A stretch of DNA of 64,000 bases from an uncultured Desulfovibrionaceae bacterium (lineage in GTDB: Bacteria > Desulfobacterota > Desulfovibrionia > Desulfovibrionales > Desulfovibrionaceae). Below the pieces are notes generated by a model. The model was not told the DNA's origin, did not search any database, and worked only from the letters and a program-made list of their open reading frames with translations. The position numbers were made by a program, and so were the translations under genes. Every line of letters begins with the position of its first letter. Position 1 is the first letter of the stretch. Shown here in pieces: positions 7,042 to 10,154 of this stretch. Where the stretch lies: the NCBI GenBank assembly GCA_944325195.1, contig CALUZB010000004.1:124001-188000 (forward strand), written 5' to 3'.

Positions 7042-7536
7042 TTATATATCCATAAACAAAATCCGATTGCCCTGGTTTTCCACCAGTCTGACCAGATCAT
7101 TTACCCCTATCCAAACTGTGGCGGTGTTGGTATTAGGATGTATCCCAATAAAATCATAGCTGCGCAGGGCATTGTCTATTACCACAACAACGGAATGTTC
7201 CGGATCATGGATCACTCCAAACGGGGTAACCGCCCCTTTTGTAAGTTTGAGATATTTATACAGATCTTCTTCACTGGCGAACCGCAGAGGCCTGCCTCCC
7301 AGTTTGTCTTTAAGCTCTTTTAAATTCACCTGCTTATCTTTATCCATTACCACAAGGTAATAGTTTCTTTTCTTGTCGTCGCGCAGGAATAAATTCTTAA
7401 CCACATTTTCCGGGTGCTTTATATCCACACTGATCATTTCCTCAATAGTGAAAACAGGCGGATGTTCTGTGACCTCATAAGAAATCTGCATTGCATCCAA
7501 CAAAGAATATACTTCGGTTTGTGCTTCAACTGACAT
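7042..7536 (-). CDS. YbaK/ProX-type aminoacyl-tRNA deacylase
   Basis: A 164-residue cytoplasmic editing domain that hydrolyses mischarged tRNA in trans. The family signatures are the substrate-loop Lys in VVKNLFLRD (about residues 45-53), KGAVTPFGV (about 99-107) and GIHPNTNTATVWI (about 131-143). Length and the PNTNTATV motif fit the PrdX/ProXp-ala group, which clears Ala-tRNA-Pro, better than YbaK proper. It stands alone, convergent with the RibD-like gene. A 6-bp stem (TTGAGG/CCTCAA, 7585-7602) lies in its leader about 50 bases before the start; its meaning is unclear. Confidence 0.88.
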   Translation of the reverse strand: MSVEAQTEVYSLLDAMQISYEVTEHPPVFTIEEMISVDIKHPENVVKNLFLRDDKKRNYYLVVMDKDKQVNLKELKDKLGGRPLRFASEEDLYKYLKLTKGAVTPFGVIHDPEHSVVVVIDNALRSYDFIGIHPNTNTATVWIGVNDLVRLVENQGNRILFMDI

Positions 7537-8452
7537 AATACTTCCTTATATTCAGACAATCGCTCTTGCTGCGATCGCTTCAACTTGAGGTGGCCTCCTC
7601 AATTTCAACGTATTCACGATTGACTAATCCATCTTGTAGTCTAAATCAATCTTTCAATAAAGTTTATGCCGGGAGCCGGCCACAACTGTTCTCTGGAATT
7701 TACCCGGCTTACTGTTACCTGGAACAATCAGCCAGCGCCAAGGCCTGAATTCAGGTCATGAATTCGTCTTCTTACCGCTACAGGCAACACTTTGGATTGG
7801 TATCCGGACAGGCCAAGCTGGACAAAACAGCCCGCCTTTGGTAGTGACTATCAGATTAAGTGTTATCGACGTAACCAGCCTTATTATGGTTGCTTATTGA
7901 TATTCACATGACGGAAATGGGCCTGTCCCCGTATAGCTGGCGACTGAGGTCGATTTATTGTGTAACGAAAAAACGGACGTGCATGGTACTTATACATCCG
8001 GCCAAAAAGATTTCGGAACGAACTTATCGCTTAATCCCACTTGATGTGACCGCAAGGCTGATGCCTCTGTCACCCGGGTTACCAGTCCGCCCGCTTTTGT
8101 TCGCTCAATACAGCCCCGGTAAAGCCTGAACTCACCCTTCTCAATATAAATTGAAAGAAACACGCACAACTGTTTATAGGGGTAATTGTTGAAGGAGCAT
8201 TTCATGGAATACTACCAGGCCCGGTTATGCAAAGAGCTTAACCTCATGTGACTGATGCCTGCCTGCACTGACCCGTTTAGCGAAATCAAGCTGACGCGGG
8301 AGAAAACGCCTTAATATGGTGCAAGGTCGGAAAAGCTCCAGTGCCTGAAAACGAATAAGCTTCCTGACATAAGCAACCCATACACGTAGAGTAATTGCAA
8401 TGAAATATAATCCTATCCGGCTTTCCCGGATTTATATGATAGTGGGGGATGC
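7537..8452. other. Long gene-poor region (916 bp)
   Basis: No frame here gives a recognisable protein. Open stretches of 60-80 codons exist but lack ribosome sites and family motifs. I see a perfect 12-bp palindrome at 7745-7756 (CCTGAATTCAGG), a 6-bp stem at 7585-7602, and a hairpin ATCCGG-ctttc-CCGGAT at 8415-8431 just upstream of the PurC-like start. No tRNA, riboswitch or insertion-sequence pattern was recognised. It may hold decayed genes or the leader of the next gene. Confidence 0.5.
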
Positions 8453-9361
8453 ATGCAAGTTGTGATGCAAACAGCTCTTCCCGGTTTGGCCAAGCCGGTT
8501 CGGGATGAGGTTCGCGACATATATGATCTGCAACAGAAGAAGCAGCTTATTGTTTATACCGACCGAATGGCTGTGTCAGGCCGGATTTTAAAAAAGCCCA
8601 TTCCATACAGAGGCATCATGTTCACCCAGATCAGTCTGTACTGGATAAGCAAATTCACTCATCTGGTTGGTCATAACCTGGTTGCACAAGCTGTACAGCG
8701 CTTCCCTCAGGAGTTTCAGTCTCAAGCTGCCTTGCTTAAGGGAAGAAGTGTCATTGTGCAACAACTCAGAGAGCTGCCGCTCAAATTCCGGGTGGTCGGC
8801 AATCTTGCCGGTGCAGACTGGAGTTCTTATCAGAAAAATCGTATGGTGGGCGGTAAAACCTTGCGCATCGGTTTGCGTGAATCAGACCGACTGGAAACCC
8901 CTATCCTGATAGTCACACCAACCGGAGATATGAGCAGGCAACGGATTGATGATATTGAAAAATGGGCACGCCGCATGTATGGCCAGATGTTATATAAAGA
9001 TTTGGTGGACATCAGCCTCGCCATTTTCGGGGTGGCCCGCAACTATGCAGCTAAGCGGGGCCTGATTATTGCCGATTCCGCTTTTGAGTTCGCAGTGCAT
9101 GAGGGAAATCCTTATATCATCAATAATGTTTTGAATCCGGAAACAACCACATATTGGTCTAAGGAAACATTTAAGCCCGGTCAGACGCAACCATCTTTTG
9201 ACCGCCAGCCCCTGCAAGACTGGCTGGCCGCCCAAGGCTGGGACAGCTCGCAACCGCTGCCGGAAATTCCAAAGGAAATCATTTCAGAAACTTCGCGGCG
9301 CTATCGCGAAATTTTCAACATCATGACAGGCAAGGTTGCCCTGCCTGATAAAGACGAATAG
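8453..9361 (+). CDS. Divergent PurC (SAICAR synthetase) homologue, probable pseudoenzyme
   Basis: A 302-residue intact frame alignable along its whole length with SAICAR synthetase (purine step 8). Scaffold signatures are kept: VRDIY (20-24), PIPYRG (49-54), GRSVIV (97-102), GLRES (140-144), YAAKRGLIIAD (198-208), QPSFD (246-250) and DWLAAQGWD (256-264). Functional motifs are changed. The usual RGKVRDIY is VRDEVRDIY, SAFD after the DR motif is AVSG (40-43), RGYxSGSGWK is VGNLAGADWS (115-124), the TPSTKA/HDENI segment is replaced, KFEFG is AFEFA, and the Mg/ATP-site IDE before VLTPDSS is INN (223-225) followed by VLNPETT. The lack of stops or frameshifts suggests it is maintained, probably for another role. 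GGGGGAT precedes the ATG. It stands alone between two gene-poor stretches. A catalytic PurC is expected elsewhere. Confidence 0.8.
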   Translation: MQVVMQTALPGLAKPVRDEVRDIYDLQQKKQLIVYTDRMAVSGRILKKPIPYRGIMFTQISLYWISKFTHLVGHNLVAQAVQRFPQEFQSQAALLKGRSVIVQQLRELPLKFRVVGNLAGADWSSYQKNRMVGGKTLRIGLRESDRLETPILIVTPTGDMSRQRIDDIEKWARRMYGQMLYKDLVDISLAIFGVARNYAAKRGLIIADSAFEFAVHEGNPYIINNVLNPETTTYWSKETFKPGQTQPSFDRQPLQDWLAAQGWDSSQPLPEIPKEIISETSRRYREIFNIMTGKVALPDKDE

Positions 9362-9695: not shown

Positions 9696-10154
9696 TCAAA
9701 AAGGATAGGGGGTTTTTAAATTCACACTTTCATAGATCATGAAGGTTTCATTGGCGCTGATCGAGTCGGAATATTTCTCCAGCATGACATTGAAGAAGTC
9801 CATTAACCCCAGCTCCGGGGTAAGCATAACGGTGAGAATGAGGTCATACCGCCCGGTAACCACAGCCACGGAAATAACGCCGGGCAGCTCGCTGATTTGT
9901 TCAGCGGTTTTTTTCAGGGCCGGAGATTTCAGTCTTACCCCGATATAGGCGGTGTAGTAGCCGGCGCCCATATCTTTGGTGGAAATAAGCGCCTTAATCT
10001 CAACCAAACCTTGTTCAATCAGCCGGTTCACCCGGGTGCGGACAGTTGCTTCAGAAAGCCCAAGCGCACGCCCGATTTCACTGAAGGAACGGCGCCCGTC
10101 TTGCAGCAAGCGCACTATTTCCAAACTGATTCTGTCAAACTTGCCTGTAGGCAT
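9696..10154 (-). CDS. Lrp/AsnC-family transcriptional regulator
   Basis: A 152-residue regulator with an N-terminal helix-turn-helix (LQDGRRSFSEIGRALGLSE, then ATVRTRVNRL, about residues 17-45) and a C-terminal amino-acid-sensing RAM domain (about 68-145, containing GVISVAVVTGRYDLILTV). Such proteins form octamers that respond to amino acids. It is the last gene of the glycine cleavage cluster, 10 bp after lipoate ligase, so it is probably a local glycine- or amino-acid-responsive regulator of the cluster. That role is inferred from position; the ligand is not shown by the sequence. Confidence 0.9.
   Translation of the reverse strand: MPTGKFDRISLEIVRLLQDGRRSFSEIGRALGLSEATVRTRVNRLIEQGLVEIKALISTKDMGAGYYTAYIGVRLKSPALKKTAEQISELPGVISVAVVTGRYDLILTVMLTPELGLMDFFNVMLEKYSDSISANETFMIYESVNLKTPYPF

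Follow-up and report, generated by a model that had tools for sequence, protein, structure and literature searches.

The purC2 Locus

The window, a 64,000-nucleotide stretch of a Desulfovibrionaceae genome (G000), carries on its forward strand an intact frame of 302 codons plus stop with an ATG start, which was called purC2. The features of this locus are as follows.

7042–7536, reverse strand: upstream neighbour, an aminoacyl-tRNA-editing-domain protein forming no conserved unit with purC2
8444–8449, forward strand: GGGGGA, ribosome-binding-like, 5' of the purC2 ATG (sequence; blastn)
8453–9361, forward strand: purC2, a 302-residue, putatively dismantled (catalytically) SAICAR-synthetase paralogue (ORF, Pfam, alignment, AlphaFold model)
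8504–8509, forward strand: codons 18–19, Asp-Glu in place of the P-loop Gly-Lys (alignment)
8570–8581, forward strand: codons 40–43, AVSG instead of SAFD, with A, V and G common to all three orthologues
8783–8797, forward strand: codons 111–115, KFRVV instead of ECIVR, by which the Mg-ligand Glu and the CAIR-phosphate Arg are gone (roles: PMC9376930, PMC3261824)
8903–8947, forward strand: codons 151–165, the former STKA/HDENI catalytic loop, now of the lowest conservation in purC2
8984–9052, forward strand: codons 178–200, a long helix, matched or exceeded in conservation by only 6 of 1086 canonical pairs
9119–9127, forward strand: codons 223–225, Mg-site I-D-E changed to I-N-N (alignment)
9221–9346, forward strand: codons 257–298, C-terminal segment, conserved above all 1086 canonical pairs
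9696–10154, reverse strand: downstream neighbour, an Lrp/AsnC-type regulator of an lplA-lpd-gcv cluster, not beside purC2 in G001

Two further copies, in G001 of the same genus and G012 of another genus, were used for comparison. Similarity between the window and the G001 locus begins in blastn at window position 8443, i.e., at the ribosome-binding-like site. In G001, purC2 comes after chemotaxis genes, with the Lrp gene at another site, and in G012 it is flanked by fhs and folD, downstream of a small ORF. No conserved neighbourhood, operon or pathway synteny was found among the three loci, and purC2 behaves as a stand-alone unit. The initial annotation had placed it alone in gene-poor DNA, which holds only in part: the distance is 916 bases to the tRNA-editing-domain gene upstream and 334 bases to the Lrp/AsnC regulator downstream. 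An association with one-carbon genes (gcv near the window copy, fhs/folD in G012) was not upheld, because the G001 Lrp gene has a GNAT-type neighbour and the adjacent fhs-folD of another genome, G007, lacks purC2. The 916-base stretch upstream of purC2 (7537–8452) contains no long ORF and no Rfam match, and may hold remnants of lost genes; an RNA element or riboswitch beside purC2 was discarded, as no Rfam match lies nearby. In G012 (L077:9441–9946), a perfect sigma-54-type site precedes a 134-residue ORF with no Pfam match, directly upstream of purC2. This site is present in G012 only, and was not taken as a purC2 feature.

PurC Fold and Family Assignment

The frame had first been described as collinear with SAICAR synthetase, and both its exact extent and a PF01259 match of 106.5 bits (E = 2e-30; curated cut-off 20) bear this out. 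On the more specific profiles, purC2 scored 234.9 bits against PRK13961 (NF010568; cut-off 251) and 110 bits against TIGR00081 (cut-off 189.9), and the best NCBIfam purC score of the G012 orthologue was 198.6 (cut-off 251), so that both proteins fall below every NCBIfam purC (equivalog) cut-off. The closest solved structures by sequence were yeast Ade1 and Mycobacterium abscessus PurC. An AlphaFold model built from an alignment of seven sequences gave a mean pLDDT of 86 and a pTM of 0.84, and was superimposed on yeast SAICAR synthase (1obd) with a Z-score of 33.0 and an rmsd of 2.2 Å over 287 residues. The structure prediction thus indicates, with high confidence, that the PurC fold is kept over the full length. 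Hence, purC2 shares the whole-length, collinear fold of the long bacterial and fungal SAICAR synthetases (yeast Ade1, 1A48/1OBD; M. abscessus PurC, 6YX3), with 29% identity to the yeast enzyme and 34–41% to the Desulfovibrionales PurC proteins compared. It differs from this long type (PF01259; PRK13961/NF010568) in its profile scores, in 21 of 24 ligand positions, in its pattern of conservation and in not being the working purC of its genome, as described below.

Loss of the Ligand Positions

Ligand positions were taken from E. coli PurC (Lys11, Lys13, Arg94, Ser100, Asp175, Glu179 and Arg199; PMC3261824), from human PAICS (Gly16-Lys19, Thr40-Asn43, Glu97, Lys131-Asp137, Lys191, Asp207, Asp212-Arg215, Lys228 and Arg232; PMC9376930) and from M. 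abscessus PurC (His69 at the adenine site; PMC6501894). These were transferred by motif alignment, for which the motif placement was our own. Columns with an invariance of 95% or more across 54 canonical Desulfovibrionales PurC sequences were regarded as near-invariant, which gave 109 columns (24 ligand and 85 other). The window protein is changed at 57 of the 109, and a change is more frequent at ligand positions (21/24 versus 36/85 others; Fisher p = 7e-5). Such a bias was also observed for the G012 protein (20/24 versus 32/85; p = 1e-4). Only 3 of the 24 ligand residues expected of a SAICAR synthetase are therefore kept in purC2.

Alignment with canonical PurC agreed with the first description that RGK, SAFD, GSG, STKA/HDENI, TKFEFG and IDE are all replaced. 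The motifs said to be retained (VRDIY, GRSVIV, YAAKRGLIIAD and QPSFD) are all present in the window protein, but VRDIY and QPSFD are not kept across the paralogue group, being HDYYD and QPLLD in the G012 orthologue. The replaced residues include the Mg-ligand Glu and Asp, the CAIR-phosphate Arg/Ser/Arg and the aspartate-binding Lys/Arg. The P-loop Gly-Lys became Asp-Glu/Leu in the purC2 group, i.e., acidic or hydrophobic, and the adenine-site His became Asn (H75N). Glu212 and Asp208 (E. coli E179 and D175) are still present. The same derived residue was found in both genera for 28 of the losses; G18D, S40A, A41V, D43G, N74H, H75N, E111K, C112F, I113R, G122D and G130R are common to all available copies, and D224N, R233T and K251R to the two full-length copies. 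With so many changes common to orthologues, sequencing errors and recent decay are both ruled out as their source.

Canonical purC in the Same Genome

De novo purine synthesis is a textbook case of conserved enzymes. The genome of the window (2.48 Mb, 98% complete) was searched for a second, canonical purC, and another PF01259 gene was found on contig C22. It encodes a short-type PurC of 244 residues that scored 263.1 bits on TIGR00081 (cut-off 189.9) and, when aligned with canonical PurC of solved structure, retained the usual motifs EGKAK, VEVIVRN, DFKLEFG and ADEISPDTCRFWD. This rules out purC2 as the sole purC of the genome. Genes of the purE type (PF00731) and purH type (PF01808) were also found there, and the SAICAR step of de novo purine synthesis would have its own separate enzyme, judging from these sequences. 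The long canonical purC is absent from the genus of the window, in which the short type is present, while G012 has a canonical long purC (419 bits) beside purC2, so that the duplicate and its parent type coexist. The initial annotation had proposed that purC2 is not a SAICAR synthetase; with a canonical purC elsewhere and the CAIR, Mg, Asp and ATP contacts lost, it is indeed very unlikely to fill that role in its genome.

Extra or truncated purC-like genes are known in archaea, with two in some Thermococci (PMC3261824). They resemble purC2 as second purC-like genes of doubtful activity beside a normal one, but they sit near purine genes, unlike purC2; moreover, archaeal PurC fully keeps Ser100, Arg94, Arg199, Asp175 and Glu179 (E. 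coli numbers), of which purC2 keeps only the Asp and Glu (PMC3261824).

Distribution and Origin of purC2

The purC2 gene was found in three genomes only, all of them Desulfovibrionaceae MAGs. In G001 (goat caecum MAG RGIG1962), the first 150 codons are present with 77% identity before a contig end cuts the gene, and the rest of the assembly yielded no second half. G012 (mouse-gut MAG iMGMC-425) carries the full-length gene with 62% identity. A profile of the purC2 group detected no further member in 288 genomes of the family or in 395 genomes across the phylum, and a pattern scan over 84,980 species genomes gave no hits other than the same two. A sequencing error or chimera was excluded, since the orthologues in two other independent MAGs carry the same derived residues. 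A phage or plasmid origin was also dismissed: a scan of viral contigs detected no relative, and the tblastn matches to phages and plasmids were all below 60% identity (26–35% among the matches listed). The purC2 tree has a very long stem, compatible with an origin either inside or outside the order, and grouping purC2 with outside PurCs was not rejected by the AU test (p = 0.53).

Purifying Selection and Shift of Conservation

Between G000 and G001, a dN/dS of 0.10 was evaluated for purC2 (dN 0.15, dS 1.49; one pair of 150 codons), with a 2dlnL of 95 against dN/dS = 1. For the working purC, these two genomes gave 0.04 at the same dS; silent sites were saturated in the comparisons with G012. 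This bears out the earlier proposal that purifying selection maintains purC2. The gene has no internal stop in G000 or G012, and the half gene of G001 has none either; with a dN/dS well under 1, neither the frame breaks nor the neutral evolution of a decaying pseudogene was detected. FtsZ identity between the same genomes is 78% (G001) and 65% (G012), compared with 77% and 62% for purC2. Since purC2 diverges about as FtsZ does, the losses are old and go back to before the two genera separated, unless the gene was transferred between them.

The regions under constraint were compared between the G000–G012 pair and 1086 pairs of canonical PurC proteins with a similar overall identity, which are not independent, so that the ranks are descriptive. 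The former catalytic loop (151–165) showed 13% identity against a canonical mean of 84%, and residues 223–256 showed 56% against 82%, both below every canonical pair. The C-terminal segment (257–298) showed 71% against 49%, above every canonical pair, and helix 178–200 showed 65% against 37%, above all but six. Per-site conservation of purC2 is only weakly correlated with that of canonical PurC (r = 0.10). The CAIR/Asp/Mg positions are identical between the two genera in 5 of 16 cases, below the 60% background of the protein (p = 0.02), while 7 of 9 ATP-side positions of the N-lobe are identical, all but one of them as new residues. This shift of constraint to helices and C-terminus favours a binding surface over a substrate pocket. 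Such a pattern is expected if substrate binding was given up and another surface became important, the chief alternative being a rebuilt ATP-side pocket.

Possible Functions of purC2

The loss of catalytic and ligand residues on a retained fold under purifying selection is a combination that purC2 shares with metabolic pseudoenzymes, i.e., catalytically dead paralogues that persist for a binding or regulatory role. We lean slightly toward such an identity, in which an old purC duplicate lost catalysis and its fold was kept for a binding or regulatory job; purC2 is probably a non-catalytic, perhaps protein-binding, relative of PurC. The ancestor would be a duplicate of the long-type bacterial purC that lost SAICAR-synthetase function before the two gut genera separated, and that stayed folded and strongly selected while a separate canonical purC, presumably active, supplied catalysis. 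The product may serve as a stable PurC-fold scaffold whose partner would most likely be a protein. The C-terminal segment and helix 178–200 are proposed as the candidate contact site, because constraint is now strongest there relative to active PurC. Against a scaffold role, no operon or conserved neighbourhood points to a process or partner, the three purC2 sequences include one half gene, fold stability could explain the conserved helices, and the fixed new residues of the N-lobe (7/9) are also expected from an altered active site.

This last point leads to a new enzyme, a reading that we regard as possible though clearly less probable, in which the cleft was kept and a rebuilt ATP-side pocket (D18, A40, V41, G43, N75 and K111) serves another ligand or reaction. 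The N-lobe positions fixed across genera and the retention of E212 and D208 fit this idea, but the change of the P-loop Gly-Lys to Asp-Glu/Leu, the variation of the CAIR/Asp/Mg positions between orthologues, the barely conserved catalytic loop and the missing pathway context weigh against it. The initial annotation had suggested another ATP-grasp-like reaction, which is conceivable, or purine-nucleotide sensing, i.e., binding without catalysis that is reported to another factor. The nucleotide cleft of the fold, the Lrp-type regulator and one-carbon genes near purC2 in the window, and the fhs/folD flanks in G012 would suit such a sensor. However, the acidic or hydrophobic P-loop, the Asn at the adenine site and the variable CAIR/Asp/Mg positions speak against it, and the neighbourhood link is weak given the other Lrp neighbour in G001 and the fhs-folD pair without purC2 in G007; we consider a sensor improbable. 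A weakly active back-up SAICAR synthetase with unusual residues could draw on the full-length fold and on calculations for human PAICS, which suggested that active-site residues merely hold the substrates and Mg (PMC9376930), but it is highly improbable with nearly all of those contacts replaced and a canonical purC present. Just as improbable is an outgoing pseudogene unbroken by chance, for which the missing long purC of the genus and the position of purC2 between long gaps might speak, but which is contradicted by its low dN/dS, its intactness in two genera and an evolution no faster than that of FtsZ.

For the non-catalytic relative of PurC favoured here, no precedent based on SAICAR synthetase was found in a literature search of open-access papers. 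The chances appear evenly balanced that the PurC fold in this small group of gut Desulfovibrionaceae has gained either a specific new activity or ligand, by way of a rebuilt ATP-side pocket, or a protein partner dedicated to it. If so, the SAICAR-synthase fold would have a function that had not been described before. A lineage-specific and strongly selected PurC devoid of its active site would show that the fold can serve another job in bacteria. Domain searches would label purC2 as purC, which may lead to a miscount of purine synthesis capacity in gut genomes.

Other Purine Genes in Related Genomes

Another divergent short PurC type (DRVTKNDAGEIDPGGN...), which accompanies a canonical long purC in some Desulfovibrionaceae, was observed at L069:3305–4051 on the reverse strand (G012 C56), G002 C51, G009 C1:647641, G020 C9 and G031 C253. 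The G012 copy is below the TIGR00081 cut-off, and G020 and G031 each possess a single PF01259 gene in the score class of this type. Besides its purE-type gene, G000 has a weak PF00731 (purE-like) match at C6:24374–24760 on the reverse strand, interrupted by an internal TAA, and weak second matches also occur in G001 and G012. PF01808 (purH transformylase) is split in the three purC2 genomes, where profile positions 1–75 and 67–311 are matched by different genes or contigs (G000 C3:73119 and C4:586385; G001 C41 and C40; G012 C84 and C56), as would be expected of a PurH divided into two proteins.
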